The translations under genes were made by a program, and so were the position numbers. This document shows, one piece after another, positions 18,744 through 48,373 of a stretch of DNA of 63,437 bases (positions are counted from its first letter, which is position 1; every line of letters starts with the position of its first letter). The notes beneath the pieces were generated by a model. It made no database searches. It saw only the letters and a program-made list of their open reading frames with translations, and was not told where the DNA came from. Location of the stretch: the NCBI GenBank assembly GCA_021413735.1, contig JAIOPV010000084.1, positions 1 through 63,437 on the forward strand, read 5' to 3'. Origin of the DNA: Planctomycetota bacterium (GTDB lineage Bacteria > Planctomycetota > Planctomycetia > Gemmatales > Gemmataceae).

Positions 18744-19811
18744 CTACGCTTTCGTTGGCTCGGGCACCGGGTCCGCACGCCACGGTTTCCCATCTCGCAG
18801 CATGGCCCAACAACGCACCAACAGCTTTCGGGCAAGGGCGACGATCGCCGGCTTCTTCCGACTCGCGCCACCGCCCGTCAGCCGCGCGTACTGCGCTCGC
18901 GCCCACGGGTTGTATCGCAACATGCACCACGCACACTCCACCAACAGCTTCCGCAAGATACCCGGACCTCGGCGCGTGATCCGACCCTTCCGATCCGTGA
19001 CCCCGCTCTGGTACTGCTTCGGGACCAGACCCGCATATGCCCCGACCTGCTTGGCCGTCGCGAACCGCTTCGCATCTCCCAGGTGGGCCGCCACCGCCTC
19101 AGCCGTTCGTGGCCCGACGCCCGGGATTGATTCGAGCAACTGGGTCGCTTCGTCCTTCGACGCGAGGGCGTCGAGCCGCTTCTCGGTTTGGTCGATCTGC
19201 TCGACCAGGAAGCGATACTGGGCCACCGCCAGGTTCAGCAAACCTTTCCACACGTCATCGGGTTGGCAATCGGCGAGAGTCTTCGATTGCTCCTCGATGC
19301 CGGCCAGTCCGGTGACGGTCCACGCCCGAGCGCCGCACGGGACGGGCAGACCTTGGCCAGCGAACAACGCTCGGATGCGGTTCTGGCACCGGACCCGCTG
19401 ACCGACGAGCTCCTGTCGCGTGGCGATGAGCATACGCCGCTGCCGGGTCGCGGGATCGGGCAGGGCCACGGTGGGGAGTTGGCCGATGGCTTCGAGTTCG
19501 GCGAGCCGCTTGGCGTCGTCGTGGTCGGTCTTGCGCTTGAGGTGCTGGAACTTCCACGACTCCGCGGCCGTGTTGGCCACCTTGACGCGGTGCCCGGCAG
19601 CGACGGCGTGATCGTGAACCCAGCCCGCGTTGGCACATGCCTCGATGACGACAACCGAGTTGGGATGTCGAGCCAGGAGTTTCGTGAGTTCAGCGGGCGT
19701 GGTGTCGAACGTGCGGAAGGAGTGTTCGCGAGACGATCGTTGGTAAACGCACGCGACGCTCTTGTACCGCCCGAGGTCGATGGCCAAAATGGTGTCCGTT
19801 GCCGTTGTCAT
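18744..19811 (-). CDS. IS110/IS1111-family transposase
   Basis: The start at 19811 is preceded by GGAGG six bases upstream, giving 355 residues. The N-terminal RuvC-like DEDD domain shows ILAIDLGRYKSVACVY (first Asp), VVVIEACANAGWVHDHA (Glu) and RKTDHDDAKRLAEL (Asp pair). The C-terminal transposase_20 domain shows LLESIPGVGPRTAEAVAAHL, RFATAKQVGAYAGLVPKQYQ and the catalytic-Ser-region candidate RRGPGILRKLLVECAW. The length is normal and no frame damage is seen, so the element may be active. It shares its first residues and upstream DNA with the broken copy at 15372-15610. Confidence 0.92.
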   Translation of the reverse strand: MTTATDTILAIDLGRYKSVACVYQRSSREHSFRTFDTTPAELTKLLARHPNSVVVIEACANAGWVHDHAVAAGHRVKVANTAAESWKFQHLKRKTDHDDAKRLAELEAIGQLPTVALPDPATRQRRMLIATRQELVGQRVRCQNRIRALFAGQGLPVPCGARAWTVTGLAGIEEQSKTLADCQPDDVWKGLLNLAVAQYRFLVEQIDQTEKRLDALASKDEATQLLESIPGVGPRTAEAVAAHLGDAKRFATAKQVGAYAGLVPKQYQSGVTDRKGRITRRGPGILRKLLVECAWCMLRYNPWARAQYARLTGGGASRKKPAIVALARKLLVRCWAMLRDGKPWRADPVPEPTKA

Positions 19812-19878
19812 CGCAAGCCTCCAAACGTGAAGGGCGATCACCCTTCACACTAACGCACACGACGGCTTGCATGGATTC

Positions 19879-30780: not shown

Positions 30781-31544
30781 TTACTTGCCGTGCCACTTGT
30801 TCCACGGTTTGGTGTCGGCTGCTGACAGCCTCCGGAGCCCAAGTTTCCCGCGCGACCAGTAGATGCCCACGCTGTGGAAATGCTTCCGGTGCGGGTCGTC
30901 CAGGTCAAGTTCGGGACGATCGGGGTCGCTCGTGTCGAGGCGGTAGTTGCCCGCCTCCAGCTCGTCGGCGGTGTCCGTCAGGAACTGCCCCAACTTAGGG
31001 CAAGAACAGTGTGGAACTCATCGTCGCGGCCGAATTTGATGACCTGACCTCGCGTTCCCTTCGGTCCGGGATTCAGATCCACGCCGATGTGATTGCCGCC
31101 CGAGTCATAAGTGAGGGGTATCCACCCGCGGTCGAAGTACGAGTGCTGCACAAAGCCATCCGGGAATGAAGAGCAACTCGCCGCCAAGTCATCGGCAGAG
31201 CTATCTGCGAGGGCTGACTCGTAACCCTCGACCCACGTTTTCCAGTTATTCAAGCAGTCCCTGAGCGGATCAACTGCCAGTCCGAAAACAATGCCTGGCC
31301 CAGCGCACTGGCCGTTGTAGACGAGGTAACTTTCCCGCACATCCTTCGGCAACTTCTGGCCGATCGCGAACTCGAAATTCTGAATCTCTGCGGCCGTGGC
31401 GGGTGGGCAATCCTCGCCAGTGTGCTGAGGCAACTTTGTGGTACACCACCTCTTCAGTCGCTTCCAAGCCGTCTTGATCGGGTACGAGCCCGCGGCCGGG
31501 TTGGTCCGATATGAAATGCAACCGATCGGAGACGGTTTTGCCAT
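30781..31544 (-). pseudogene. SMI1/KNR4 gene with a one-base frameshift
   Basis: The first frame, 31544 to 30978, reads MAKPSPIGCISYRTNPAAGS ... TAAEIQNFEFAIGQKLPKDV, RESYLVYNGQCAGPGIVFGL ... VIKFGRDDEFHTVLALSWGS and stops at once. One extra G in the GGGG run near 30992-30995 would continue it as SWGQFLTDTADELEAGNYRL and on to WNKWHGK at 30781, the normal SUKH C-terminus. It is therefore a real gene broken (or mis-sequenced) at one base. Outside the cassette array it shows that SUKH proteins are common here. It diverges from the STM4013-type operon, with 81 bases between starts. Confidence 0.75.
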
Positions 31545-31625: not shown

Positions 31626-32435
31626 ATGCTCAACGCAAACTCTCTCGTCGGCACGCACGATGTGCTGTTCGTCACGCTCGACACGCTGCGTTTCGATGTG
31701 GCCGAACAGGAACTTGCTCGCGGCCGCACGCCGACTCTTGCGTCGATGTTACCAGCCGTTGGTTGGGATCGTCGGCACTCGCCAGGAAATTTCACCTTTG
31801 CGGCTCACATGGCGTTCTTCGCCGGGTTCCTGCCCACCCCCGCCGAGCCTGGTCGCCATCCGCGATTGTTCGCGCTCAAGTTCCCCGGCAGCGAAACCAC
31901 CGTGCCCGAAACGGCCGTGTTCGACGCACCCGACATCGTCGCTGGGTTTCGCGGCCGCGGTTACCGTGCCATTTGCATCGGCGGCGTCGGCTTCTTCAAC
32001 AAACTGACGCCGCTCGGATCGGTGCTGCCGGGTCTGTTCGACGAAAGCCATTGGTCGCAGGAACTGGGCGTGACCGATCCACGCTCCACCGAGAATCAGG
32101 TGAATCTCGCGCTGTCTCGCCTCGCGGCGTTGCCGCAGGAACAGCGTGTGTTCCTGTTCGTGAATGTGTCGGCGATCCATCAGCCGAATCGCTTCTACTT
32201 GCCCGGGACCACCGAAGATTCCCTCGAATCTCATGCTGCGGCGCTGGCATACGTGGACGGTGAACTCGGGCGGTTGTTCGCAGTGTTACGACGCCGCGGA
32301 CCGTGGCTGTGCGTGATCTGCTCGGATCACGGCACGGCCTACGGTGAAGACGGCTACACGGGTCACCGCATCGCACATCGCGTTGTGTGGGACGTACCGT
32401 ATGCTGAGTTCATCCTCAGCGAGCAACCGGCATGA
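31626..32435 (+). CDS. STM4013-type hydrolase (alkaline phosphatase/sulfatase fold)
   Basis: The product is 269 aa. The N-terminal metal site DVLFVTLDTLRFDVAEQELA, the nucleophile region SPGNFTFAAHMAFFAGFLPT and the C-terminal metal site CSDHGTAYGEDGYTGHRIAH fit the alkaline-phosphatase superfamily; the length is short for a sulfatase. This corresponds to the conserved STM4013/SEN3800 family, always found with two radical SAM proteins and an ATP-grasp protein. It has no signal peptide, so it is cytosolic. Its stop overlaps the next ATG by four bases. It probably hydrolyses a phosphate or sulfate ester in the pathway; the substrate is unknown. Confidence 0.85.
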   Translation: MLNANSLVGTHDVLFVTLDTLRFDVAEQELARGRTPTLASMLPAVGWDRRHSPGNFTFAAHMAFFAGFLPTPAEPGRHPRLFALKFPGSETTVPETAVFDAPDIVAGFRGRGYRAICIGGVGFFNKLTPLGSVLPGLFDESHWSQELGVTDPRSTENQVNLALSRLAALPQEQRVFLFVNVSAIHQPNRFYLPGTTEDSLESHAAALAYVDGELGRLFAVLRRRGPWLCVICSDHGTAYGEDGYTGHRIAHRVVWDVPYAEFILSEQPA

Positions 32436-33754
32436 TGGCCACCCAGCAGCACCCCATTCTCGACGGCAGTCCGTATCAGGGGTACGTGTACGCTTACCCG
32501 CATAAGACCGCGTATCGACGGCTCGACCCGCTGTCGCTCACGGACGTCTGGGCAGACGAACCGAAAACGGGATTGTTCCTGTATCTTCACGTCCCGTTCT
32601 GCACCATGCGGTGCGGCTTCTGCAACCTCTTCACGACGCCCAACCCCAAGGATGCTCTGGTCACGCACTACATCGCTGCCCTGCGGCGACAGGCAGAATG
32701 CGTGAAGCAAGCGATTCCAGATGCGACGATTGCTCGATGTGCCATCGGTGGCGGCACGCCGACTTACCTCGATGAAGCCGCACTGGAAGAACTTTTCTCG
32801 ATTGCGCGGGAAGTGATGGGTTCAGATTTCTCCGCAATCCCGGTGGGAATCGAAACGTCGCCCGACACGATCACGCCGGGCAAGATTCAACTCCTCAAAG
32901 CCCACGGCGTGAACCGCGTGAGCATCGGCGTGCAATCGTTCCTTGAGTCTGAGACGGCGAGTTGTGGTAGACCGCAATCACGCAAGGACGTGGCCACCGC
33001 GTTGTCATTGCTCGCCGAAGCGAGATTCCCCACCCTCAACATCGACCTCATCTACGGCTTGCCAGGTCAAACGGTGACAACGTGGCTGCAATCACTTCAC
33101 GCGGTTCTCGCGTTCAAACCTCAGGAACTCTACCTGTATCCGCTGTACGTTCGCCCCCTGACCGGCCTCGGGCAGTCGCACAAGGAGTGGGACGACGTGC
33201 GGCTCGCATGCTATCGAGAGGGTCGGGAACTGCTGCTCGCGGAGGGCTATTCGCAGGTGTCGATGCGGATGTTTCGCCGGTACGACGCGAGCGAGGTCGG
33301 CGGACCCACATACTGCTGTCAAGAAGACGGCATGATCGGGCTCGGCTGTGGTGCGCGATCTTACACGCGGAGCCTGCACTACTCGCTCGACTACGCTGTG
33401 AAGCCGAAGAGCGTGAAGGAGATCATCGCCGATTATGTTGCCCGCACGCCCGCCGAGTTGTCTGTTGCCGACCACGGATTCGCACTCAATGCCGATGAAC
33501 AGCACCGACGGTATCTCCTGCAATCACTCCTGAACACCGACGGGCTCGACACCGCCCGCTACACAGCCCGTTTCGGCACCGACGCAACCGACGATTTTCC
33601 TGAGCTTCGCACCTTCGCTGAACTTGGTCTGTTCGGTTACGATGCGGGACGCTTGGTTCCGACACCAACTTGCCTGGAACGTTCCGATGCGATTGGTCCG
33701 TGGTTCTTCTCAACTCCGGTTCGCACTTTGATGGAGGAGTACGAGGCGAAATGA
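32432..33754 (+). CDS. STM4012-type radical SAM protein (HemN/HemW-like)
   Basis: The product is 440 aa. FLYLHVPFCTMRCGFCNLFT contains the CxxxCxxC cluster motif. The SAM-binding GGGTPTYLDEAALEEL, GIETSPDTITPGKIQLLKAH, GVNRVSIGVQSF and LIYGLPGQT segments match oxygen-independent coproporphyrinogen oxidase relatives, and the C-terminal region (RRYLLQSLLNTDGLDTARYT) has the HemN-type winged helix. It overlaps both neighbours by four bases, so the whole cassette is translationally coupled. It is a different family from true HemN; the reaction is unknown. Confidence 0.9.
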   Translation: MMATQQHPILDGSPYQGYVYAYPHKTAYRRLDPLSLTDVWADEPKTGLFLYLHVPFCTMRCGFCNLFTTPNPKDALVTHYIAALRRQAECVKQAIPDATIARCAIGGGTPTYLDEAALEELFSIAREVMGSDFSAIPVGIETSPDTITPGKIQLLKAHGVNRVSIGVQSFLESETASCGRPQSRKDVATALSLLAEARFPTLNIDLIYGLPGQTVTTWLQSLHAVLAFKPQELYLYPLYVRPLTGLGQSHKEWDDVRLACYREGRELLLAEGYSQVSMRMFRRYDASEVGGPTYCCQEDGMIGLGCGARSYTRSLHYSLDYAVKPKSVKEIIADYVARTPAELSVADHGFALNADEQHRRYLLQSLLNTDGLDTARYTARFGTDATDDFPELRTFAELGLFGYDAGRLVPTPTCLERSDAIGPWFFSTPVRTLMEEYEAK

Positions 33755-34605
33755 ACCTCTCGATTCTCTATCGCGGGCCGCTGTCGAGTTGCAACTATGC
33801 GTGCGACTACTGCCCCTTTGCCAAGCGCACCGAAACGAGCGCCGAACTCGCCCACGACCGCGAATGCCTGAGTCGCTTCGTCGCATGGGTCGAAGGTCGC
33901 ACGGCAGATACGATCGGCGTTCTGTTTACTCCGTGGGGCGAAGCTCTCGTGCGGTCCTGGTATCAGAACGCCTTCGCGGCTCTCACGCAGTTGCCGCACA
34001 TTCGCAAGGCTGCAATTCAGACGAACCTCTCCTGCAAGCTGGACTGGGTTGAGAACTGCGACAAGTCGAAGCTCGCATTGTGGTGCACGTTCCACCCCGG
34101 TGAAACAACCCGCGAACGCTTCCTGGCGAAATGCCGTGAACTGCTCACACGCGGCGTGCGGTTCAGCGTTGGCGTCGTTGGCTTGAAGGAACACCTCGCC
34201 GAGATCGAAGCGTTGCGAGCGGAGTTGCCCGCCGAGGTGTATCTGTGGGTGAACGCTTTCAAACGCGAGCTGGGCTACTATTCGCCCGAGATGCTGGAAC
34301 AGCTCAAGAACCTCGACCCGCTGTTCCCGCTGAACAATCGGTATCACACAAGTCGCGGCGAATCGTGCCGGGCGGGGAGCGGCGTCGTCTCAGTGGACGG
34401 CGACGGCACGGTTCGCCGCTGTCATTTCGTGAAGGAACCGATCGGGAACATTTACTCTGCGGACTTTGAATCGTGTCTCTCCGAGCGGCCGTGCCCGAAC
34501 GAGACGTGCGGCTGCCACATCGGGTACGTTCATCTGGATCGGCTGAAACTGTACGACACCTTCGGCGGCGGCATCTTGGAACGCATCCCGCTTGGGTATC
34601 GGTGA
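33751..34605 (+). CDS. STM4011-type radical SAM protein with SPASM-like C-terminus
   Basis: The ATG at 33751 overlaps the preceding TGA, giving 284 residues. The opening MNLSILYRGPLSSCNYACDY carries CNYACDYC, the radical SAM cluster. The C-terminal part holds at least seven further Cys (ESCRAGSGVVSVDGDGTVRR, then C, and SCLSERPCPNETCGCHIGYV), as in SPASM/twitch auxiliary clusters of peptide- or protein-modifying enzymes. That makes a peptide or protein substrate plausible. The next gene starts 11 bases on. Confidence 0.9.
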   Translation: MNLSILYRGPLSSCNYACDYCPFAKRTETSAELAHDRECLSRFVAWVEGRTADTIGVLFTPWGEALVRSWYQNAFAALTQLPHIRKAAIQTNLSCKLDWVENCDKSKLALWCTFHPGETTRERFLAKCRELLTRGVRFSVGVVGLKEHLAEIEALRAELPAEVYLWVNAFKRELGYYSPEMLEQLKNLDPLFPLNNRYHTSRGESCRAGSGVVSVDGDGTVRRCHFVKEPIGNIYSADFESCLSERPCPNETCGCHIGYVHLDRLKLYDTFGGGILERIPLGYR

Positions 34606-34616
34606 GGGAGACGATC

Positions 34617-35795
34617 GTGTCAGAAGCTCAGGCATTCGAGAAGGCGATTCTGGAGAAGCCAGACGAGATCGCGTCCTATGCGGCTTACGCCGATTGGTTG
34701 CAGGAACACGACGACCCGCGCGGCGAGTTCATGCAGGTCCAGCTCACACTGGAAAACCCTTCGCTCCAGAAGGAGGGACGGAAAACGCTCCAGGCCCGCG
34801 AGCGGGAGCTTCTCGATGCACACGAGACGCAGTGGCTCGGGGAACTGACACCACTGCTTCTCCAACACAGCCCGCACGGCAAGGGGGCGAACGTCGGCCA
34901 CTGGTGGGTTCGTGGCTTCCTCGCCGAGTTGACCGTTCAACACTTGACGGTGTCACTGGCCGATCTGCTGGCCACAGCACCCGCTGCGAGGTTCGTCCGC
35001 AGCCTCCGGATCGCGACTGCTGAAGCCGCCCAGTCGTCGGGCATTCCGGGCCTCACCTCACCCTCGGCATTCGCAGTCTTGATCGGTATACCGTGTCTCC
35101 AGAACCTGCGGGTGTTGCAGGTTGGCGACGAACCCGAACAGTGGGCCGACGGTCGGACCGAGGCGACCTACTACACCCCCGGCCTGGAACAATTCGTCGC
35201 AAACCTCCCATGCATCGAAGAACTCTATCTGATGTGCAGCGGGTACGACGCAGCAACACTGTTCGGCCTGCCAAACCTCACGCATCTTCAAACGCTACGA
35301 GTTTACGGGCTTGGCAATGACGAAGCAGAGGAGGACGTAGTTCCACTCGGCTCCATCGCTCGCAACCTCGCGCTCGGCTCGCTCACGCACCTGATCGTGC
35401 ATCCGTGTTCAACGCCAAACAACTCGTCCCTGCCGCACTCCCAGGTTCACGCCCTGATGAACTCGCCTCACCTGACGAGCCTCGAACACCTGCAACTGCG
35501 ACTCTCGGACATGGGTGACGACGGCGTTCGCTCGATCATCGAATCGGGAAAGTTGAAACAACTCGGCTGGCTCGATTTGCGAAACGGCACCATCACTGAT
35601 TCCGGTGCGAAGGCGCTCGCCGACTACCCGCCCACGCGGAGTCTCCGGCGGCTCGACCTTTCTCGCAACCGGGTCACACACGCGGGGCTGAATATGCTTC
35701 GTCGTGCGGAGGTGAATGCTGTTGTGGAAAACGCCCTGAGCCGCCGTGAGATCGAAGAACGCGAACGCGAAGAGCGTGAAGCGGAGATGGAGTAA
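34617..35795 (+). CDS. TIGR02996-LRR protein without WGR domain
   Basis: The GTG at 34617, six bases after GGGAG, gives 392 residues. It opens directly with the companion module (FEKAILEKPDEIASYAAYAD; WLQEHDDPRGEFMQVQLTLE), then an Arg/Glu-rich helix and a leucine-rich-repeat solenoid (LTSLEHLQLRLSDMGDDGVR; KQLGWLDLRNGTITDSGAKA; LRRLDLSRNRVTHAGLNMLR). The tail REEREAEME is very charged and ends in Glu. It is the first of four paralogues placed inside the STM4011-4014 gene set. Conserved neighbourhoods elsewhere often include an LRR protein (STM4015 family), to which this could correspond. Confidence 0.85.
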   Translation: MSEAQAFEKAILEKPDEIASYAAYADWLQEHDDPRGEFMQVQLTLENPSLQKEGRKTLQARERELLDAHETQWLGELTPLLLQHSPHGKGANVGHWWVRGFLAELTVQHLTVSLADLLATAPAARFVRSLRIATAEAAQSSGIPGLTSPSAFAVLIGIPCLQNLRVLQVGDEPEQWADGRTEATYYTPGLEQFVANLPCIEELYLMCSGYDAATLFGLPNLTHLQTLRVYGLGNDEAEEDVVPLGSIARNLALGSLTHLIVHPCSTPNNSSLPHSQVHALMNSPHLTSLEHLQLRLSDMGDDGVRSIIESGKLKQLGWLDLRNGTITDSGAKALADYPPTRSLRRLDLSRNRVTHAGLNMLRRAEVNAVVENALSRREIEEREREEREAEME

Positions 35796-35821
35796 CCCAG
35801 GAACTACCCGGAGCCCAACCG

Positions 35822-37282
35822 ATGCGGACGTTTCAGTTCAGCGATGCCAAGAGCCACAAATTTTGGAACATTGACGTGAGCGGCAACTCGTTCACAGTTA
35901 CCTACGGCAAGATCGGAACCGCTGGTCAAACGCAAACCAAGAGCTTTCCGACACCAGCGAAGGCTCTCGAAGGCGCTGACAAACTCATCAAGGAGAAGAC
36001 TGGCAAGGGATACGTCGAAACGACGCCGAAGGCGGCCGGCACAGGTTCCGCGGCCGAGGCTTTCGAGAAAGCTCTGATTGCCGATCCGTACGACGGCACG
36101 GGGTGGCGTGCATTCGCCGATTACCTCGTCGAGCAGGATGACCCGCGTGGCGAGTTCATGCAGGTTCAACTGGCTCTGGAAGACGAAGCCCGCCCCACAC
36201 CAGAACGCAAGAAGCTCCAGGCTCGCGAAAAGGCTCTGCTCAAGAAGCACGAACGCGACTGGCTCGGATCACTTGCCCCGTTCATCCTCGACCAGAAGCC
36301 GCCGGAACGGTCGTGGCGACCGAGCACAATCAACTACCGGTTCCGCCACGGCTGGCTGAGCGAACTGGAGATTCCCCAACTCGGGGTCGAGTTCACTCGG
36401 GCACTGCTCCTCTGCAAGGAGGCCCGCTTCCTATACAAGTTGCACGTCCACACCAACGCCTACGAGTACCCGGAGGGCCATCCGCAAGCCTCAGAGCATG
36501 CCGACAGCAAATACGCCCCTGGGCCAGATTTGCCAAAGGATGTGAGCCACTACGAGGTGAGCTACCACCTGCTTGCCCGGTTCCCCTACTTCGCGTCGGT
36601 GCGGGTCTTCCACCTCGGGAACCCCATCGGAGAGAATTTCGGCGACTCCGACAATTGCCACACGAATGGCGAGATGGCGTTCCACTACGTCAAACAGATG
36701 CCGCACGCAGAGGAGATCTACCTCCTCGCCCACGGCGTCGATGCGGGCAAACTGTTCGCCCACTCAATGCCGAATTTGCGTGTGTTGCAGGTATTCCACA
36801 ACAGGGCCTACCCGACGGCGAAGCTGGCGGGCAATACGTCACTCAGGAACCTGACGCACCTGCGGTTCCAGCCTCACGCTCCAGACGATCCCGACGAGGT
36901 CTTCCGGCTCAAGGATCTGCGGCCAATCTGCCGCTCGGCGAACCTGCCGAAGTTGTCGCACCTCGTGCTGCGGTGTACGGCGTTTGGCGACGAGGGAGTT
37001 ACCGAGGTCATCACGTCGGGGTTACTGAAGCGGTTGAAGGTTCTGGACCTGTCGGCCGGGTGCGTGACGGACGAGGGAGCGAAGGTGTTGGCGGCATCGC
37101 CGGACGCAAAGAACCTTGAGCAATTAAACCTGGACACGAACACATTGAGTACGATCGGGATCAAGGCGTTGCAGGCCGCGAAGGTGAAGTTCTCCGCGAA
37201 GACGCAGCACAACGAGGTGCCGCCGTTCGACTTCGAGGACGAGATACCCGAGTTCCTATACACGAACGCCGACATCGAGTAA
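35822..37282 (+). CDS. WGR-TIGR02996-LRR protein (paralogue 2)
   Basis: The product is 486 aa. Residues 1-65 are a WGR domain (KSHKFWNIDVSGNSFTVTYG; KIGTAGQTQTKSFPTPAKAL; KGYVETTP), with Y-G-K in place of W-G-R. Residues ~80-150 are the companion module (FEKALIADPYDGTGWRAFAD; DDPRGEFMQVQLALEDEA). The remainder is an LRR solenoid (MPNLRVLQVFHNRAYPTAKL; LKRLKVLDLSAGCVTDEGAK). The tail ends EIPEFLYTNADIE. WGR domains bind nucleic acid or act as protein-contact modules in eukaryotic PARPs; their role here is unknown. Confidence 0.88.
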   Translation: MRTFQFSDAKSHKFWNIDVSGNSFTVTYGKIGTAGQTQTKSFPTPAKALEGADKLIKEKTGKGYVETTPKAAGTGSAAEAFEKALIADPYDGTGWRAFADYLVEQDDPRGEFMQVQLALEDEARPTPERKKLQAREKALLKKHERDWLGSLAPFILDQKPPERSWRPSTINYRFRHGWLSELEIPQLGVEFTRALLLCKEARFLYKLHVHTNAYEYPEGHPQASEHADSKYAPGPDLPKDVSHYEVSYHLLARFPYFASVRVFHLGNPIGENFGDSDNCHTNGEMAFHYVKQMPHAEEIYLLAHGVDAGKLFAHSMPNLRVLQVFHNRAYPTAKLAGNTSLRNLTHLRFQPHAPDDPDEVFRLKDLRPICRSANLPKLSHLVLRCTAFGDEGVTEVITSGLLKRLKVLDLSAGCVTDEGAKVLAASPDAKNLEQLNLDTNTLSTIGIKALQAAKVKFSAKTQHNEVPPFDFEDEIPEFLYTNADIE

Positions 37283-37329
37283 CTTGTCCCGCCGTGGGAC
37301 GTGCTGATCGCGAACCTTCGGAGTCTCCG

Positions 37330-38742
37330 ATGCGAACGTTTCTGTCGAGCAATGCGAAGCAGTTTTGGAACATCGACCTTCAAGAGAACCAACTCAGGGT
37401 GACCGCAGGAAAGGTCGGTTCACCTGGTCGCACTTCGACCAAGAAACAGTCAACCCCGCAGGAAGCACGGACAGCGAGCCACAGACTCATTCGCGAGAAG
37501 CTGGGCAAGGGCTACATTGAAACCACACACGGAACCCCGACGCCCGAGAGCAAAGCCTTTGAGCGGGCCATCGCCGCCGACCCAAATGACGGAACCGGCT
37601 GGCGAGCATACGCCGATTATCTCGTCGAACGCAACGATCCACGCGGTGAGTTCATGCAGGTGCAGTTCGCACTGGAAGACGAAACTTTGCCGAAGGCCGC
37701 TCGAAAGAAACTCCAAACCCGCGAAGCCGCGTTGCTCAAGGAACACGAGCGAGAATGGCTGGGCGAACTCGCTCCGTTCATGCTGGAAGGCGACGAACAC
37801 GGGGTCCACAAACCTGTCTGGCGAAATGGCTTCCTGGCGGGCAACGGCTTCATGCTCCCGGTCGCGTTTGCCCAGGAGTTGGCAATCGCGCCTGCGGCCC
37901 GATTTCTGCGAGAGTTGCGGCTCAGTAGCATGGGCAACTATGGGGACACAACCCCGTTTCTTGCGACGCAACCGCCAGGAGTCCCACGGCACGCTTCGCT
38001 CTTCGAGTTGATCGGCTCGCAGTGCCTTCGAACCGTGCAAGTCTTTCAAATTGGCTTCGAGGAACCTGAAGAAGACTCTTGGTGCGAGTGCTACTCTTCG
38101 GCCTGGGGCCTCGAACACGTCATTTCCCAGATGCCCCGGATCGAAGAGTTGCATCTGCTTTGTGGCGACTACGAGATTGGCAAGGTGTTCGCGTTGCCGA
38201 ATCTCCAACATCTGCGAGTGTTCAGGGCGTTCCACCTTGGGGGTCGTGGAGGGGGCCACCGATACGAATACCCGCTCGACGTGCTGGCGAAGAACCCGGC
38301 TGTGGGGAACTTGACGCACCTGCTCTTCCATCCGCACTGTCCCGAGGGTTCCAACCCCCAAACGGGTTCCGAGTCCTACCTCCCGCTCGACCAGGTCAAG
38401 GCGTTGGTGCGATCGAAGTGTCTGCCGCGTCTCACACACCTCCAATTGCGGCTCTCGGACGCGGGCGACAAGGGAACGGAAGAGATCGTGAAATCGGGCA
38501 TCTTGAAGCAGTTAAAGTGGCTGGATCTGCGGCACGGTTGCATCACGGATGAGGGAGCAAAAGTGTTCGCGGCATGCACAGACAGCCGGAATCTGGAGCG
38601 GCTCGATCTGACCCGCAATGCCGTGACCGCGAAGGGGCTGAAGCTTCTTCGGGCTGCAGGTGTGAACGCGGTGGCGAATAACCCACTCACGGCACAGGCA
38701 GCCGCCCAACACGAGTATCTCCGCGAGGGTGCCTTCGAGTAA
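37330..38742 (+). CDS. WGR-TIGR02996-LRR protein (paralogue 3)
   Basis: The ATG at 37330 gives 470 residues. The divergent WGR domain (SNAKQFWNIDLQENQLRVTA; GKVGSPGRTSTKKQ) is followed by the companion module (FERAIAADPNDGTGWRAYAD; NDPRGEFMQVQFALEDET) and LRRs (LTHLQLRLSDAGDKGTEEIV; LKWLDLRHGCITDEGAKVFA; LERLDLTRNAVTAKGLKLLR). The tail is QHEYLREGAFE. It lies 47 bases after paralogue 2, so the set behaves as a tandem duplication with divergence strongest in the middle of the solenoid. Confidence 0.88.
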   Translation: MRTFLSSNAKQFWNIDLQENQLRVTAGKVGSPGRTSTKKQSTPQEARTASHRLIREKLGKGYIETTHGTPTPESKAFERAIAADPNDGTGWRAYADYLVERNDPRGEFMQVQFALEDETLPKAARKKLQTREAALLKEHEREWLGELAPFMLEGDEHGVHKPVWRNGFLAGNGFMLPVAFAQELAIAPAARFLRELRLSSMGNYGDTTPFLATQPPGVPRHASLFELIGSQCLRTVQVFQIGFEEPEEDSWCECYSSAWGLEHVISQMPRIEELHLLCGDYEIGKVFALPNLQHLRVFRAFHLGGRGGGHRYEYPLDVLAKNPAVGNLTHLLFHPHCPEGSNPQTGSESYLPLDQVKALVRSKCLPRLTHLQLRLSDAGDKGTEEIVKSGILKQLKWLDLRHGCITDEGAKVFAACTDSRNLERLDLTRNAVTAKGLKLLRAAGVNAVANNPLTAQAAAQHEYLREGAFE

Positions 38743-38784
38743 ATTGTCCCTGTCGTTCTACGTTTCACGATTGAGAGCCGCCCG

Positions 38785-40179
38785 ATGCGAATGTTTCAAT
38801 ACAGCGACGCGAAGAGCCACAAGTTCTGGAACATCGACGTGAGAGGCGCCTCGTTCACTGTCACTTACGGCAAGATCGGCACGGCCGGGCAGACCAAAAC
38901 CAAGTCGTTCCCGTCGTCGCAGAAGGCACAAGCTGCCGCCGAGAAACTCATCATGGAGAAAGTCGGTAAGGGTTACGTCGAAACGACCCCTCGGACCATG
39001 TCATCCGAGGCCGAGGCGTTCGAGAAGACGATCCAGGCTAACCCGCGTGACTTGGCAGGAGTCGCCGCGTATGCCGATTTCCTTGCGGAGCGTGACGATC
39101 CACGCGGCGAGTTCATGCAAATTCAGATCGCACTGGAGAACGAATCGCTGCCGAAACCAGAGCGGAAGAAACTCCTGAAACGCGAGGTCGAATTCCTTGG
39201 GACCCACGAGGCGGAGTGGGTTGGCAACTGGGCGGAACACTTCGATGCTCCGACCAGCACAGAGGGCCGCGGGCAAATCAATCACACGGGCGGGCGAAAG
39301 TACGAATTCAAACGCGGTCTGCTTTCGACAGCGAACTTCGGTGAATTGACCGTCGCTGCCGCGAGAGCATTCGTGCAATCACCGCAGACCCGGTTCATTC
39401 ACGAGTTGTTCATCGGGTACTATGCGTATGAAGAGGACGGGGACGACGATACCGCCCGGCAGATGCTCCTTGGCTGGCCGCACATGCGACACGTTCGACG
39501 ATTCCAGTACGGATGGATCGCAGATGAAGTTTACGGTGACTTCTGCAATTTCCAGTGCCACCTGCCCGGCGAACATGTCTACGACTTCGTGAAACAGATG
39601 CCGGACGTGGAAGAGTTGCTGATCTTCGCCCACTTCACGGACTCGGTCAAACTCGTTGCTCTCCCGATGCCCCATCTTCGGGTGCTGCAACTGTACCACG
39701 GTTACAGTTACCCACTCGACCGGCTCGCGAAAAACCCGTGGCTCACGAACCTCACGCATCTGCTCTGCCACCCTCATGCTCTCGAAGGAGATCAGGCTTT
39801 CATCGGGTTGACGGATCTTCGAGCGATCTGCCGTTCAGAGTACCTGAAGAACCTCACGCATCTCCGGTTGAGGTTGACGGACTTCGGTGACGAGGGCGTC
39901 CGTGTCATCATTAACTCGGGAATCCTCAAGCGGCTCAAGCTCCTGGATCTCCGGCATGGCTCGATTACCGATGAGGGAGCAAAGCTCTTGGCCGAGTGTC
40001 CGGATCTGAAGAATTTGGAACATCTCGACCTATCCCGCAACGGGCTCACGGAGACTGGCAAGAATGCCCTGATCGCCACAAAGGTATCGGTTTCGCTTGA
40101 ATTCCAGCACGCGGAAATTGGCGGACAAGAAGACTACGGGAGCCGGCCACGATATCTGTTCGAGGGAGACTACGAGTAA
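38785..40179 (+). CDS. WGR-TIGR02996-LRR protein (paralogue 4)
   Basis: The product is 464 aa. The WGR domain (KSHKFWNIDVRGASFTVTYG) is nearly identical to that of paralogue 2. It is followed by the companion module (FEKTIQANPRDLAGVAAYAD; DDPRGEFMQIQIALENES), LRRs (LTHLRLRLTDFGDEGVRVII; LKLLDLRHGSITDEGAKLLA; LEHLDLSRNGLTETGKNALI) and the tail RPRYLFEGDYE. It ends five bases before the ATP-grasp gene, so the two are surely cotranscribed. Confidence 0.88.
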   Translation: MRMFQYSDAKSHKFWNIDVRGASFTVTYGKIGTAGQTKTKSFPSSQKAQAAAEKLIMEKVGKGYVETTPRTMSSEAEAFEKTIQANPRDLAGVAAYADFLAERDDPRGEFMQIQIALENESLPKPERKKLLKREVEFLGTHEAEWVGNWAEHFDAPTSTEGRGQINHTGGRKYEFKRGLLSTANFGELTVAAARAFVQSPQTRFIHELFIGYYAYEEDGDDDTARQMLLGWPHMRHVRRFQYGWIADEVYGDFCNFQCHLPGEHVYDFVKQMPDVEELLIFAHFTDSVKLVALPMPHLRVLQLYHGYSYPLDRLAKNPWLTNLTHLLCHPHALEGDQAFIGLTDLRAICRSEYLKNLTHLRLRLTDFGDEGVRVIINSGILKRLKLLDLRHGSITDEGAKLLAECPDLKNLEHLDLSRNGLTETGKNALIATKVSVSLEFQHAEIGGQEDYGSRPRYLFEGDYE

Positions 40180-40184
40180 CCACG

Positions 40185-41333
40185 ATGCCACCACGGTACG
40201 TGCTGATCGCGAATCCGGGCACGAAGCGGTGCGAGTTGTATCGCTCCGAGTTGATCGCGTTCTGGGAAGCTCGCGGCGGGGCCGTCGATCTCGAAATCGT
40301 CCCGTGGGCAGACGTAATTCCCCGAGTCGGCAACCTGGATCATCTTCCCGCGTTCGATCACGACGCCATCGTGCGGATGGAGTCGCCGGGCAAAGACAAT
40401 CACGTCACGCGATTGCTACTCGAAGCTGGAGCACGAAACGACCCCGCTGAACCGCACCGCGACTGGCGAGCACTTGAACTGCCGAAGGGGTTGCTCGTGC
40501 GGCCGGGGTTGCTCTATGGCGGCTTCCGTCGAGTGCTCGTCGGACTGCGAAACGCCTTCGACGCTCGACCGCACCTCAAGCCGACCGCGTGCCCGCTTGC
40601 CATCGCCGAGATGTTCGACAAGACCGCAACCGCCGTGAAACTGCACAATCTTGGCGTGCCCGTTCCCGAGATGATGAGCCAGCCGATTGACATGGCCGCT
40701 GTCGTTCACGACCTCACGCTCTTTTACGACTGGCCTACGGCTTACATCAAACTCAATACGGGTTCCTCTGCCACCGGGATTGTCGTGCTGCATCCGAATG
40801 CGCCGGAACGGCCGGCGTTCGGCGTCACAACGCTCGCGGAACTCGACGGCAGCTTCTACAACTCACGGTTGGTTCGTCGTGTTTCTGGGGACGGGCTTCA
40901 GCAGGCCGCGCAATTCGTGCTCGATGAAGGAGCCATCATTCAGCGTGGCATTCCGATGGCGCAGATCGACGGGCAGAACTTCGACGTGCGAGTGGTGTGC
41001 ATTCACGGGAAACCATCGGCGATCATCTTCCGACTCAGTCCCAATCCAATGACGAACCTGCATCTCGGCGGACAACGTGGTGATTTCGCTCGCTGTCGGG
41101 CAACGATTCCCACTCGCGAATGGCTCGACGCCCTGGATCACTGCTCGGACGCCGCTGCCTGTTTCGATTCAGCAATCGCTGGCGTCGATTTGCTCTTCGA
41201 GCGTGGCTTTCGGCGGCATTACATTCTTGAGGTGAACGCCTTCGGTGACTTCTTCCCCGGCTGGACGAACGACAGCGGACAATCCGTGCATTCGCTTGAA
41301 ATCGAGGCGACCATGCAACGACTTCAGGGTTGA
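40185..41333 (+). CDS. STM4014-type ATP-grasp protein
   Basis: The product is 382 aa. The N-terminal domain (YVLIANPGTKRCELYRSELI) is followed by LKPTACPLAIAEMFDKTATA, with K in the fixed position of ATP-grasp folds. Then come WPTAYIKLNTGSSATGIVVL (Lys plus glycine-rich loop), IIQRGIPMAQIDGQNFDVRV (Asp-Arg pair) and the metal-binding end AGVDLLFERGFRRHYILEVN. Such enzymes join a carboxylate to an amine or thiol through an acylphosphate. It closes the STM4011-4014 gene set. The substrate is unknown; the adjacent LRR proteins are the obvious candidates. Confidence 0.88.
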   Translation: MPPRYVLIANPGTKRCELYRSELIAFWEARGGAVDLEIVPWADVIPRVGNLDHLPAFDHDAIVRMESPGKDNHVTRLLLEAGARNDPAEPHRDWRALELPKGLLVRPGLLYGGFRRVLVGLRNAFDARPHLKPTACPLAIAEMFDKTATAVKLHNLGVPVPEMMSQPIDMAAVVHDLTLFYDWPTAYIKLNTGSSATGIVVLHPNAPERPAFGVTTLAELDGSFYNSRLVRRVSGDGLQQAAQFVLDEGAIIQRGIPMAQIDGQNFDVRVVCIHGKPSAIIFRLSPNPMTNLHLGGQRGDFARCRATIPTREWLDALDHCSDAAACFDSAIAGVDLLFERGFRRHYILEVNAFGDFFPGWTNDSGQSVHSLEIEATMQRLQG

Positions 41334-41440: not shown

Positions 41441-42678
41441 ATGACCGCAAATATCCAGACGCTTGAACAAGCCCAGCACCACACCCGTGGAGTTCGCTGC
41501 GAGGGGTGTAGCAGAGAGGGCACGCTGGCTGCGCACGAGTTCACAAGGAGGGGCCGAACCAGGGGCGTCTCTTCCTCAAATGTCGCCACTGCGGATTCTT
41601 CGGTTGGCTGACGGCGGGGACCCCCGACACCGGGTTGGAGCAACTCCTGGCGACCATCACACCGTGCCCGAGATGCGGCAAGCGGCGACAGGCCGGTCGC
41701 GTGGCCAAGGATGGTGCCAACAAGGGGCGGCTGTATCGAAGTTGCTCCGATCCCGAGTGCGGTAAGTTTGAATGGGTCACGCCTTCCGCAAGCACAGAAC
41801 CCGCAGCCGCAAATCCCCCACAGGCCGACGCCAGACCACGAGACGAAGCCAACTTCCTCGCAGCGATCCGTGACAACCCCGAGGACGACACCACACGCCT
41901 GGTCTTCGCCGATTGTCTGGACGAGCACGACCAGCCGGCCCGAGCGGAACTCATCCGCGTGCAGATCGAGCGATGCAACCTCGAAACAGCAGACCCCGCA
42001 CGGTTACCCCTCGACCAACGAATCCAGGCCATACTCGGCGAATGCGAGGCGGCGTGGACCGCATCGTTACGCCCGTTGGCGGTGCGATGGCAGTTCGCAC
42101 GCGGCCTGATCGACGAGGTCGAGATTGAACTGGAGCGTTTCGTCGAGAACGCCGACGAGGTTCTGCGGGCAGCGCCGGTGGCGGGCCTTCGTATCCGCGT
42201 TGACGGTTGGGAAGACGTGCGGACGCTGATCGGGTGTGGGCGGCTGCGACAAGTTTGTCGGCTGACCCTCACGGATGGACGCATGGGTGCTGCCGGCGCG
42301 AGAATCCTGGCGGAATCGCCTCAGGTTGCCGGTCTGCGATCGCTCGCGCTGCCAGGACAGAGCCTCGGGCAACCGGGCCTTCAAGCGTTGCTCGGCTCAC
42401 GTTATCTGACCGAACTTGAAGCTCTCGACCTCTCGGGCAATAGCCTCGCACGCAGCGCCATCCCGTTCCTGGCGAGTTCAACCAATCTCCCGCGACTTCG
42501 GCGGCTGAATCTGGCGCACAATCTCCTTCAGGACAGCGATGCGAGGGCGCTCGCCAACTCATCTCAACTCCACGAGCTACGAGAACTCGACATCACGGGC
42601 AACGGGATCACGCGCGAAGGCATTGGAGCCATTCTCAATTCGCCACTCGGTGCAAGACTCCGACGGTTTATACGCTGA
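41441..42678 (+). pseudogene. Double GRF-type zinc finger, TIGR02996 and LRR protein, frameshifted near 41548
   Basis: From the ATG at 41441 (AGGAG upstream) the frame reads a zinc-finger start (VRCEGCSREGTLAAHEFTRR). A one-base slip in AAGGAGGGG near 41545-41552 is then needed to continue as GPNQGRLFLKCRHCGFFGWL. A second finger, CPRCGKRRQAGRVAKDGANK then GRLYRSCSDPECGKFEWV, follows. Both have the GxNxGR...C...C..F.W pattern of GRF fingers. Then come the companion module (FLAAIRDNPEDDTTRLVFAD) and LRRs (LTELEALDLSGNSLARSAIP; LHELRELDITGNGITREGIG). Without the slip, translation could begin only at the TTG at 41635, losing finger one. It lacks the acidic tail of the operon paralogues. Confidence 0.7.
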
Positions 42679-42717: not shown

Positions 42718-44793
42718 GTGAACAGCGATGGCCAGGGCGACGCCGAACGACCACACCCGGGAGATGTCCTTCCGAACGGTGCGCGAGTGCGGCTCGGCAC
42801 GAACCGGCTCAACCACATCTGTTATCGAAGTGCCAACTCCGGTCTGTGTTGCCTCGTCTTCTCGCCGGATAGCCAGTATTTGATTGGTCTCGGGTACGAC
42901 GATGACGAAGCGACGTTGTGGGAAGTGCCCAGCGGCCGCGAGGTGTGGCGGTTCGTGTCCGACGGACCGTGGGGCGGCAATCGCGGCAATGGCGGCGCGG
43001 CATTCAGCCCAGATTCCCGGCTCGTGGCGGTGGACGGCGGAACCGCACGGGTCTTTGAAGTCGCCACGGGCCGCATGGTGATGCAACTTGACACTGGTTC
43101 GAGTGCGTATGGTTGCTTCATGTTCTCGCCCTGCGGCCGCTTCCTCGCTCAGGTCGTATTCAACCGAGTCCTCGTTCTCGCAGTCGAAACCTGGAAAGTT
43201 GTCGCCACCCTGGAGGCCAACGACCCCGAGGTACGAGGACATGAGATGTTCGATTCCGTCGCGTTTAGCCCCGACGGTCGGCTCTTGGCAGCCGCTTCGT
43301 GCCGGGTCTGGGTCTGGGAGTGGGCGACGGGCGAGTTGGTCAACCGCTTTGAGCCGCCGGACAGTGCCGTGAGCGTCGTCCGCTTCTTGCCGGATGGACA
43401 GGTGGCCGTTGCTGTTCGGGATGGGACGTTGCGACTCTGGGAACCCGCCACAGGCCGTGAACTCCGTTGCCACCAATGCGCCGAGGGCCACGACAACACA
43501 TGGCCCGCAGTGTTCCGTGCCGACGGTCGTGTGGTCGCGATTCCGGGGCGCTGGACGGTTGTTCTCGATACCGAGACTGGAACCGAACTCGGGCGTTACT
43601 CGGGTTACACGTGCAGTGTCTTCGCCCTCAGCCCGAACGGCCAACTCGTGGCGAATGCCTGGTTGGGCCGCGTTGAGTTGGTGGACACGGCGACGGGCGA
43701 TGATGTGTCTCCGCCCGGTCGGCACAGCGAACGCTCTGAGACGATCGTGTTCAGCGACGATGGGCGGCGTGTCCTCACCGCAGAACATTCCGGCACCGGT
43801 GGCTTCCTCTGGGATGTGGCCAGCGGTCGGCTCATCGCGCCGGCACCGCCCCTCGGCAGGGCGTTGGAGAACATGGCGTTTGCTTCCCAAGGTTCCCGTG
43901 CCGTGTGTTACGAGAAGCAAAAACTCCACCTCTGGGACATCGAGACCGGCCAACTCCGTGAGTTCCCGTTGCCCGACAACCCGAGCGCTGTTGCCTGGAT
44001 GGCCGACGGTGAAGGCGTGGTTGTCGCCGCAGAGGGGCAGCTTTCGCTCCACGCCTTTGAGGGCAACCCGTCCGGTGTCTTATTTGAACCCGTCGGCGAA
44101 GCGATCCGCAGCCTCCGCAGCCTCGCGGATGGTCGCGTCGTGGGGTTGAGCAGCGGGCAGGCATACGTCTGGGGTGCGGATGGTCGGCTGTTGGTGGGGG
44201 CCGCGTTGCCGCTGGTCGAGAGTTGGGTTCGACGGCTCTTCGCGGTTTCTGCTGATGGGCTGATGGTTGCGGTGTATGGCAGAGACACCGTGGATGTCTT
44301 CGCGACGGAACCCACACACCGCGCACCTGACGAAGGAATCTCGGCTTCCTCACTGCCCTTCACCATCCCAGCAGGGTTTGGCGATGCTCCTTACCGGGGC
44401 TTGGGGATCACCGCAGAGTTCCTTGCGGATTCACGGCTTCTCGTGGCCGCGTGCCGGGGAGAATCGGACGACGGAGAACCGCTCGTGGTCAAGGTGTGGG
44501 AGGCCGCGACCGAGTTGGAGGTGTGGGAATCGCCTGCCTTCCCGTGTGGAATTGCGGAGGTGGTGTTCGCACCGGGCGGGCGCACGCTCGCCATCGCCCT
44601 CGATGATGCCACGACCGTGTTGTTTGACGTCCCCGTTCGCCCCGTCGAACTGGACCCGAGTTGGCGCTCTTCAACGGCGGTCGCACTGGCGAGAGGAATC
44701 GACGCCGAAGGTGCCTTTGATCGGCTCCCGATCCTGGCCGACGCGCTGCAAGACGCGGGCTGTGAGGACGAAGAATTGCTGGCTCACCTGTGA
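42718..44793 (+). CDS. WD40-like protein with companion C-terminal module, 691 aa
   Basis: The GTG at 42718 opens MNSDGQGDAERPHPGDVLPN. Propeller repeats follow (LVFSPDSQYLIGLGYDDDEA; AFSPDSRLVAVDGGTARVFE; VAFSPDGRLLAAASCRVWVW; VVFAPGGRTLAIALDDATTV). The last 45 residues (RGIDAEGAFDRLPILADALQ; DAGCEDEELLAHL) are a small helical module found at the C-terminus of many planctomycete repeat proteins. It has no signal peptide. It lies 39 bases after the GRF/LRR gene and overlaps the helicase fragment by four bases. Confidence 0.8.
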   Translation: MNSDGQGDAERPHPGDVLPNGARVRLGTNRLNHICYRSANSGLCCLVFSPDSQYLIGLGYDDDEATLWEVPSGREVWRFVSDGPWGGNRGNGGAAFSPDSRLVAVDGGTARVFEVATGRMVMQLDTGSSAYGCFMFSPCGRFLAQVVFNRVLVLAVETWKVVATLEANDPEVRGHEMFDSVAFSPDGRLLAAASCRVWVWEWATGELVNRFEPPDSAVSVVRFLPDGQVAVAVRDGTLRLWEPATGRELRCHQCAEGHDNTWPAVFRADGRVVAIPGRWTVVLDTETGTELGRYSGYTCSVFALSPNGQLVANAWLGRVELVDTATGDDVSPPGRHSERSETIVFSDDGRRVLTAEHSGTGGFLWDVASGRLIAPAPPLGRALENMAFASQGSRAVCYEKQKLHLWDIETGQLREFPLPDNPSAVAWMADGEGVVVAAEGQLSLHAFEGNPSGVLFEPVGEAIRSLRSLADGRVVGLSSGQAYVWGADGRLLVGAALPLVESWVRRLFAVSADGLMVAVYGRDTVDVFATEPTHRAPDEGISASSLPFTIPAGFGDAPYRGLGITAEFLADSRLLVAACRGESDDGEPLVVKVWEAATELEVWESPAFPCGIAEVVFAPGGRTLAIALDDATTVLFDVPVRPVELDPSWRSSTAVALARGIDAEGAFDRLPILADALQDAGCEDEELLAHL

Positions 44794-45584
44794 AGCGGCT
44801 CGAACAAACGCGGCCGCTGGGTCGTCGATCTCTTTCAGGACAAAGGACCGTGAATGACTCCGACTTAGTCGCTCGCGCGATGCTGGAGATGGTTGGTTCT
44901 TCTCAAGCTGAAGCAAGCGAGTACGGTGCCGCCTTCTGTCAACTCATCGACGCAGGTAGTGACCGAGAACTTGCGGAAATTGACGGAGACGAGGAACCCG
45001 ATGACGATGCCGCCGGGGAACGCTGGAGGGTGATCGAAGGGCGTTTGCGTGAGGAATACACTCGGACACGTGGGGCGTTTGCACGATTGATGTTTGGGGA
45101 CACAAGCCCAGAATCTCGTCGGATGATTCAGCTTGCGTTCAACCGACCCGAGAGTTTCCCGAAGGTGCTGGTCGCCCAGTCACTCGTCGGTCGTGAAGGG
45201 CTCAATCTTCATGGAGCGTGCCGAGTGGTCGTGCTGCTTCACCCCGAATGGAACCCTGACGTCGTCGAGCAGCAGATTGGGCGTGTGGCTCGGGTGAATA
45301 GTCGCTGGTGTTACGAACTCAGGAAAGCCGTTAACGATTGCCTGCCTCCGAATCAAACCCCGCGGATCGAAATTCGTCCGGTGATCTTCCAGGGCACATA
45401 CGATGAACACAATTGGATAGTGTTGAGGGGCCGCTGGAACGAGTTGCGTGCACAGTTGCACGGAGTTGTCATTTTTGCGAAAGCTGCTCAGGCTGAGTCT
45501 GAATACGCTACACTGCTCGAAGAGATTCTCCACGCCGCGCCAGACTTCTCACCAAAGCCTGCCGACGATGCTGGTATCCGATGA
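44790..45584 (+). pseudogene. C-terminal fragment of a SNF2/RapA-type helicase
   Basis: The 264-residue frame includes SF2 helicase motif V (VLVAQSLVGREGLNLHGACR) and motif VI (PEWNPDVVEQQIGRVARVNS), then IRPVIFQGTYDEHNWIVLRG and RWNELRAQLHGVVIFAKAAQ. Similar tails occur in large helicases of DISARM-like and RapA-like proteins. The ATPase lobe with Walker motifs, normally some 600 or more residues, is absent. The overlap start (GTG at 44790) and the first ~30 residues are probably an accidental junction. Most likely this is a relic of a deleted defence-type gene. Confidence 0.6.
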
Positions 45585-47872: not shown

Positions 47873-48373
47873 GGCGTCTTCCGATGCAGTGAGGTCTCGG
47901 CTGACTGGGCATGATACCACGAACATTCGTGGGACACCCTCCATGCGTTCCCGCCTGCGAAGGGTTACTTGCTATTTGCCTGATTCCGCCTCGCACAGAT
48001 CGGAACCCTTGGAAGTCACGTAACGTCTTCATCACGAACTTCGTCTCGATCTCGTTTGCGGTCGAGCTGGCATATTGATTTTACACGACCGACCCGGATC
48101 ACCTTCTGTCGGAACTCTGGCGCATCGGTGCCACTACGACCGTACTCCCGAATCTTGGCTAGAGTCGTTCGAGACGGAGCTGGCTCGTCTAGGTTTTGCC
48201 CGCTCTGCGTGCGTGTGTTGGAGACTTCAAGTGATCGGCGACGAGCGGCTGAACAGCAAGACTGTCCGAGCGAACGGTCCACTGGTTTCTTGAAAGCGGT
48301 CACGGCCGCGATCAACCTCCGAGACGAGAACTCAGAGTGTTGACGCCTGCCGCGACGCTGTGCGACAGCCCAG
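47873..48373. other. Intergenic region without recognised gene
   Basis: Roughly 500 bases lie between the WD40-LRR gene and the end of the desaturase gene. A plus-strand frame around 48135-48235 reads TPESWLESFETELARLGFAR, which looks like part of a protein, but no start or continuation supports a gene; it may be a relic. Confidence 0.35.

Follow-up and report, generated by a model that had tools for sequence, protein, structure and literature searches.

Among the closest described counterparts of the system analysed here are ATP-grasp ligases that act on the C-terminus of a partner protein. In PMC10433800, LysX uses the gamma-carboxyl of the C-terminal Glu of LysW to attach an amino group; LysW is a small zinc protein whose EDWGE end is read by the GSWGR motif of the ligase. 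PMC10092738 has RimK adding Glu at the C-terminus of ribosomal protein S6, and PMC9303977 describes amino-group carrier proteins as using both a globular body and a C-terminal extension in recognition. The latter source also covers pearlins, the carrier peptides of the PEARL enzymes, in which a group attached to the C-terminus of the carrier is processed by radical S-adenosylmethionine (SAM) enzymes among others and the PEARLs themselves use aminoacyl-tRNA. STM4011 to STM4015 are five curated family names present in many phyla, for which nothing on function was found in the literature searched (most subscription journals lay outside its scope) and of whose five locus tags one is mentioned by two papers, in each case a single time and in a table, while the family names do not occur there. 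Here we compare these systems with an eight-gene operon that combines four STM40xx enzymes with four leucine-rich repeat (LRR) proteins, located in a 63,437-nt stretch of DNA (the window; contig JAIOPV010000084.1) from the 9.8-Mb genome of a planctomycete of the Gemmataceae.

The operon (31,626–41,333, + strand) consists of eight tightly packed open reading frames (ORFs) in the order STM4013, STM4012, STM4011, LRR1 to LRR4, STM4014 (Table 1), and in profile searches each of the four enzymes scores above its curated NCBIfam cut-off. A preliminary description had recognised this coupled operon, with four LRR genes between the second radical SAM gene (STM4011) and the ligase, and the ORF positions agree with it throughout. 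Its term 'four WGR/LRR proteins' needs correction: all four are LRR proteins and carry TIGR02996, but WGR is found in three and is missing from LRR1. New here are the C-terminal Glu of the LRR proteins, the likeness of the ligase to LysX and RimK, and indications of a joint replacement of STM4014 with its LRR partner.

The companion LRR protein is itself a named NCBIfam family, STM4015 (NF038076), with LRR-like members. The four enzyme families named in the preliminary description are all present, but this fifth was overlooked, and the picture of four families plus LRR proteins is incomplete because STM4015 already names an LRR member. Seven of 13 plasmid records were compared: STM4015-4014-4013-4012-4011, with one or two STM4015 genes, is the order in Deinococcus (two records), Streptomyces, Methylobacterium, Paenibacillus and Salmonella, and 4015-4014-4011 is annotated in the record from Bacteroides. 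The window resembles the operons of Salmonella, Streptomyces and Deinococcus in its four enzyme families and in having a Glu-ended LRR protein beside STM4014, but differs in its order (4013-4012-4011-LRR-4014) and in having four companions, which carry TIGR02996 and mostly WGR, end in a GDYE-like rather than a RYVAVGE-like tail and score far below the STM4015 cut-off of 275 bits. They adjoin STM4014 and all four end in Glu, as STM4015-type companions do, and are diverged occupants of the STM4015 place beside STM4014; the window set thus represents a different gene order with more LRR copies, and not four families plus unrelated LRR proteins. Two Myxococcota companions (L044 and L052), in which WGR, TIGR02996 and the STM4015 body are fused and which also stay under the cut-off (235.5 and 239.4 bits), bridge the two kinds; companions fused to WGR are known from Myxococcota, Bacteroides, Pirellulaceae and further Gemmataceae. 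The top fold match of the LRR4 model is PDB 2RA8 (Bacteroides fragilis Q64V53), a WGR-LRR member of the STM4015 family, solved but uncharacterised, with the native end YPMITE, of which there is no mention in the literature searched; a close relative from B. finegoldii has no TIGR02996 match. Companions number one to four per locus, mostly one or two. LRR1 shares 40% identity with the first (end SYGDIE) and 48% with the third (end REGDFE) companion copy of genome G026. A paralog of LRR1 (66% identity; contig C22 of the window's own genome, L223, 7,562–9,244, − strand) lies outside the operon and also ends in Glu.

The survey of gene neighbourhoods started from 80 STM4011 loci (the best 80 of 583), seven plasmid stretches, 20 planctomycete stretches and the window, and comprised 105 loci after removal of L152 and L153 (copies of L040 and L034) and of L154 (no strong STM4011). 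A companion was counted only if its ORF has a stop and passes home-made score limits. Companion LRR genes (129 in all) were found in 88 loci; none was in view in 17, of which 15 were also without STM4014 in view. For 86 of the 88 STM4014 genes a companion lies on the same strand at a distance of at most 200 bp, the exceptions being L085, where the contig begins at that point, and L066, so that the co-occurrence of LRR/WGR proteins with STM4011–STM4014 anticipated in the preliminary description extends well beyond the window. According to record titles and taxonomy, the loci with companions come from eleven phyla: Planctomycetota, Deinococcota, Actinomycetota, Pseudomonadota, Bacillota, Bacteroidota, Chloroflexota, Acidobacteriota, Cyanobacteriota, Myxococcota and Verrucomicrobiota.

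Among the 15 loci where both STM4014 and a companion were out of view, eight were pursued, together with L151 through its genome (L037, L040, L057, L067, L105 and L141 were left aside). In all eight genomes without STM4014 near STM4011 the gene was located elsewhere (in G491 as a fragment only), and in seven of them an LRR companion adjoins the distant STM4014, on the opposite strand in G212 and without the final Glu in G489. STM4014 is about 900 kb from STM4011 in G074, about 15, 23 and 16 kb away in G487, G488 and G489, and on another contig in G212, G486 and G490. Among 392 planctomycete genomes, STM4011 exceeds the cut-off in 11 and STM4015 (E ≤ 1e-18; five candidates scored per genome) is present in 12, with both in 10 (Fisher p = 3e-17, uncorrected for relatedness). 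The eleventh genome with STM4011 is that of the window, with companions of the diverged kind; those with STM4015 and no full STM4011 are G285, where STM4011 is truncated, and G138, where the STM4015 match is weak and lacks the final Glu. Good support therefore exists for a pairing between STM4014 and LRR proteins that end in Glu.

Glu is the final residue of 126 of the 129 companions, that is, of 111/114 STM4015 proteins and 15/15 companions of the Gemmata type, the kind found in the window; thinning of near-copies leaves 66/69 for STM4015, and none of the 88 loci is without a companion ending in Glu. The C-termini of the four enzymes in the same loci vary, with no uniform residue. As a control, 66 other TIGR02996 places with a visible stop in the window genome include nine with a final Glu, one of them a close LRR1 paralog, versus four of four in the operon (Fisher p = 8e-4). 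The canonical STM4015 tail reads R-[YF]-x-A-V-x-E (R in 108/114, E in 111/114), while the 15 Gemmata-type tails have G (12) or A (3) at position −4 and mostly D (13) at −3. Over the 25 residues before the Glu, net acidity per residue is 2.6 times that of the rest of the protein (69 thinned STM4015 sequences). Across the 50 rows of alignment A3 (7 Gemmata-type and 43 of 72 thinned STM4015), an invariant Leu (Leu414 in LRR4) is separated from the C-terminus by a stretch of 41 to 59 residues; the invariant Glu column of this alignment is a selected view because the copies of L041 (end SEYLQD) and L073 (end VMVTD) and the L063 pair, among others, are omitted from it, and the full counts are those given above. 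An AlphaFold model of LRR4 from 50 sequences, the Gemmata-type portion of which is shallow, has a predicted local distance difference test score (pLDDT) of about 50–62 over the last 24 residues (62, 50 and 50 in the last three blocks) and of 93–98 in the final LRRs preceding them, suggesting that the tail probably lies outside the LRR fold.

A search of the window genome with the exact tail pattern shared by LRR3 and LRR4 gave four places: these two genes, a place that has TGG instead of a stop, and one that faces a gene encoded on the opposite strand. No further gene thus ends in this pattern; since LRR1 and LRR2 themselves deviate from it, looser tails could escape such a search. This bears on whether the LRR genes are simply unrelated neighbours in a family, the Gemmataceae, that is rich in TIGR02996 LRR proteins. 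LRR genes are common and the window genome has 71 TIGR02996 places, but companions of one family, with a shared final Glu, stand beside STM4014 in eleven phyla, also where it is away from STM4011, and with the restriction of the exact tail to the operon this makes the explanation extremely improbable. A chance LRR neighbourhood was rejected on the surveys of companions beside STM4014.

STM4014, the gene they adjoin, encodes an ATP-grasp enzyme whose profile gives 11 PDB matches, including LysX and RimK (E from 4e-5 to 2e-4). Its model (pLDDT 93.9) has RimK in the first four Foldseek rows (TM-scores 0.5–0.7), and a second look with VIA placed it next to ArgX:LysW (Z 22.7; root-mean-square deviation 3.0 over 274), LysX (22.4) and RimK (21.8), a list in which the absence of other folds carries no evidential weight. 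By modelled fold STM4014 therefore appears nearest to RimK and ArgX/LysX, which lengthen proteins at the C-terminus, although it scores far below the cut-offs of the corresponding NCBIfam families (rimK_fam, 22.2 bits, cut-off 143.4; LysX, 20.5 bits, cut-off 275.6). Residues K146, K189, D267, R269, R283, D335, E349 and N351 are kept in 42/42 STM4014 sequences and presumably serve the ATP site.

The ligase and its companion also seem to have changed together. In two loci, L027 and L136, the identities of STM4011 (77%), STM4012 (67–68%) and STM4013 (72–75%) to those of the window fall within the range of genomes with Gemmata-type LRR proteins, while their companions are canonical STM4015 and their STM4014 is only 38% and 34% identical, against 55–76% in seven of eight Gemmata-type genomes. 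The trees are of a quick kind, built from 44 of the 95–104 available rows, hand-picked for spread. In that of STM4011–4013, L027 and L136 fall within the Gemmata type, while in that of STM4014 the Gemmata-type rows form one starred set adjoining Myxococcaceae; the label 'WGR plus TIGR02996 companion' requires one change on the STM4014 tree and four on the STM4011–4013 tree. A nine-row clade of the latter, named after the tree had been seen, is rejected by the STM4014 data (approximately unbiased test, p-AU 1.5e-6). These comparisons suggest that STM4014 and its LRR protein tend to be replaced together, and such joint change points to STM4014 as the enzyme that contacts the LRR protein.

The preliminary description took the operon for a candidate protein-modification system with dedicated LRR partners, and the pairing across phyla leaves this as the best reading once STM4015 is added to the picture. 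In the form we favour, to which we give an even chance, the LRR proteins serve as substrates or carriers, STM4014 loads them at their C-terminal Glu, and the radical SAM enzymes act afterwards. An LRR partner would consist of a folded repeat body and a flexible acidic tail ending in Glu; STM4014 would bind both, activate a carboxylate of the C-terminal Glu with ATP and couple to it an amino acid or another amine, as LysX and ArgX do on LysW and RimK on S6. STM4011, STM4012 and STM4013 would next alter the attached group or the tail, and the end product would be either a modified protein or a small molecule built on the carrier and then released. Ligation at the Glu, taken by itself, is about evenly poised, and the order of the steps and the role of the radical enzymes are presumptive. 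Somewhat doubtful, and put forward tentatively, is the narrower proposal that the LRR proteins are amino-acid carriers charged at the Glu by the ATP-grasp ligase while the radical SAM enzymes build the product: this would be a protein-carrier chemistry undescribed so far and present in eleven phyla, with one ligase in the window for four carriers (all with TIGR02996, three with WGR).

With LysW and its ligases the set has in common a globular domain with an acidic tail ending in Glu and the fold of the ligase; it differs in that the partners are LRR proteins with GDYE-like or RYVAVGE-like tails, and not small carriers with zinc-binding Cys and EDWGE, and that the operon contains radical SAM enzymes instead, with no relatives of LysZ, LysY, LysJ or LysK among its genes (the search covered the operon and not the rest of the genome). 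By analogy, the STM4014-LRR set may work like an amino-group carrier system without being a member of one. RimK, too, shares the ligase fold and works at the C-terminus of a protein, but the acceptor here would be an LRR protein and not S6, and we know of no radical SAM partners of RimK. The action of radical SAM and other enzymes on a group at the carrier C-terminus would be a likeness to pearlins; PEARLs are not known to be ATP-grasp enzymes, and no PEARL-like match was found among the operon genes with NCBIfam and Pfam.

Several observations weigh against loading of the LRR proteins by STM4014 at the final Glu. Five companions lack this residue, three of the 129 (two with D, one with G) and two of 13 further strong ones (L073 12,035–13,471, L041 2,743–3,696, L063 7,189–8,475, L229 5,541–6,827 and L226 6,603–7,871), although in all five cases the genome has another copy ending in Glu, and the deviating ones may be decoys, altered substrates or frameshifts. 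In G074, a weak LRR ending in Ser lies between the Glu-ended copy and STM4014. The tail of LRR1 is Glu-rich, so its final Glu is weak evidence and could be due to chance, and low pLDDT (<50) is also found in LRR4 at the loops 158–164 and 247–255. For the joint change, STM4014 of the eighth Gemmata-type genome, G074, is only 39% identical to that of the window, G074 also being the most distant in STM4011–4013; furthermore, neither the monophyly of Gemmataceae in STM4014 (p = 0.27) nor, with L137 set aside, that of the Gemmata type in STM4011–4013 (p = 0.34) is rejected. As to the ligase, the GSWGR motif is found in 0/42 STM4014 sequences, which would therefore read a tail other than EDWGE. Biotin carboxylase and D-Ala ligases are also among the PDB profile matches; PPIP5K (21.0), glutathione synthetase (20.9) and D-Ala ligases (about 20) follow ArgX at about 1.7 to 4 Z units, and the top NCBIfam match outside STM4014 is MptN (27.2 bits, far below its cut-off), a small-molecule enzyme. 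With other ATP-grasp enzymes this close and MptN ahead of rimK_fam and LysX, the acceptor is not fixed by likeness.

The conserved C-terminus could be a recognition signal rather than a ligation site, and the match to MptN also suits an arrangement in which the LRR proteins are scaffolds or adaptors whose Glu tail docks, unmodified, on STM4014 or another enzyme, the true substrate being a small molecule. Short conserved C-termini can serve docking, LRR and WGR are binding domains, and small molecules are frequent substrates of enzymes that are HemN-like or have the phosphatase fold. On its own, however, such scaffolding leaves the adjacency and the joint change of ligase and LRR protein unexplained, and one to four copies per locus are more natural for substrates; we consider it unlikely.

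The remaining enzymes bear on what may follow loading at the Glu. STM4011 has a CX3CX2C motif and a C-terminal block of five further conserved Cys, giving eight Cys columns, each of the five being present in 102 to 104 of 104 sequences. The SPASM-like Cys noted in the preliminary description for one radical SAM enzyme are thereby borne out, the sequence having the CX3CX2C and C-terminal Cys block typical of SPASM/Twitch peptide modifiers, a block that may hold extra clusters. The C-terminal part of STM4011 matches SkfB (PDB 6efn, E 3.7e-4), a peptide maturation enzyme that makes a thioether. STM4012 is HemN-like by NCBIfam and Pfam. In STM4013, D19, D24, F56, T57, H61, D234, H235 and H247 are each conserved in 95/95 sequences; from superfamily motifs we take Thr57 as the likely nucleophile and D19, D24, D234, H235 and H247 as metal ligands.

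The match to SkfB, together with the presence among the Foldseek rows of STM4014 of PruB, which we take to be a graspetide-type ligase, and the conservation of several tail positions and not of Glu alone, would also fit an LRR tail that resembles the core of a ribosomal peptide, the LRR body being the leader and the radical SAM enzymes and ligase modifying residues of R-[YF]-x-A-V-x-E by cross-links or by graspetide-like cyclisation through STM4014. Neither tail type contains a conserved Ser, Thr, Lys or Cys that could partner the Glu side chain (a nucleophile elsewhere is possible), the two types share little beyond an aromatic residue and the final Glu, and NCBIfam and Pfam matches of the eight genes in the operon point to neither a protease nor a transporter, which leaves such a peptide core improbable. 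For substrates loaded by STM4014, a dedicated partner with a nearly invariant final residue and a ligase that appears most similar to enzymes acting on such residues reduce the matter to a question for a single experiment, whether STM4014 adds mass to the final Glu; if so, the operon would define a new system, with radical chemistry, for modifying carrier proteins or protein tails.

Variants of STM4011 were seen in other loci. In G026, G024 and G013, which belong to the genus group of the window (L012/L016, L013/L015 and L014/L017), an in-frame insert splits the profile match near position 172. The Bacteroides finegoldii protein (L024, 8,587–10,530) has a C-terminal extension that by eye reads as a haloacid dehalogenase (HAD) hydrolase, and on a Salmonella plasmid (L025, 9,834–10,568) a gene for a HAD hydrolase overlaps STM4011 by 16 bases. 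The B. finegoldii plasmid locus has no STM4012 and only a remnant of STM4013; its interpretation as a minimal core without these two enzymes was dropped because the remnant (72 bits) points to deletion.

Table 1 Genes of the STM4011–STM4014/LRR operon of the window, with profile scores.
Feature	Coordinates	Strand	Evidence
STM4013/SEN3800-family hydrolase, alkaline-phosphatase/sulfatase superfamily	31626..32435	+	NF038075 423.7 bits (cut-off 250); PF00884 28.1 bits
STM4012-family radical SAM protein, HemN/HemW type, HemN_C domain	32432..33754	+	NF006067 598.6 bits (cut-off 380); PF04055 75.7 bits; PF06969 25.6 bits
STM4011-family radical SAM protein, SPASM/Twitch-like C-terminal Cys block	33751..34605	+	NF038073 408.5 bits (cut-off 200)
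LRR1, TIGR02996 and LRR without WGR, end ...EREAEME	34602..35795	+	TIGR02996 52.6 bits; STM4015 71.8 bits
LRR2, WGR, TIGR02996 and LRR, end ...LYTNADIE	35822..37282	+	PF05406 69.1 bits; TIGR02996 37.8 bits; STM4015 60.2 bits
LRR3, WGR, TIGR02996 and LRR, end ...EYLREGAFE	37330..38742	+	PF05406 39.8 bits; TIGR02996 44.8 bits; STM4015 52.1 bits
LRR4, WGR, TIGR02996 and LRR, end ...RYLFEGDYE	38785..40179	+	PF05406 67.2 bits; TIGR02996 34.8 bits; STM4015 61.1 bits
STM4014-family ATP-grasp ligase, LysX/ArgX/RimK-like	40185..41333	+	NF038074 242.3 bits (cut-off 175)

At the STM4013/STM4012 and STM4012/STM4011 junctions the genes overlap by 4 bases. LRR1 could start at GTG 34,602, overlapping the STM4011 stop, or at GTG 34,617, which is preceded by GGGAG. 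From LRR1 onward the gaps are 26, 11, 42 and 5 bases, the last separating the LRR4 stop from STM4014; the gap of 11 becomes 47 if LRR3, the longest ORF of which runs from GTG 37,294, begins at its likely start, ATG 37,330.

Beside the operon in 47/105 loci (L019, L021, L022, L030 and others) are genes for a DUF6745 protein, in some with an LRR-like N-terminal part, and for a protein of about 100 amino acids, the former ending in Thr in 45/47 and the latter in Asp in 47/47; this pair was not seen in the window. Just upstream of the window operon, on the opposite strand, is a gene for a SUKH (SMI1/KNR4) protein (30,978–31,544, −). Two further TIGR02996 proteins, both ending in Arg, unlike the operon copies, are encoded downstream: one with LRRs and a GRF zinc ribbon (41,635–42,678, +) and one that reads as WD40-like repeats plus LRRs (45,710–47,944, −). 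Between them, an ORF of 264 amino acids (44,790–45,584, +) has a helicase C-terminal domain as its sole Pfam match and is perhaps the remnant of a larger helicase. The window also contains transposase genes of ISL3 type (8,125–9,321, +) and IS110 type (18,744–19,841, −), and an ORF of 973 amino acids (25,874–28,795, −) that by eye reads as a fusion between an extracytoplasmic function (ECF) sigma factor and a WD40-like propeller.

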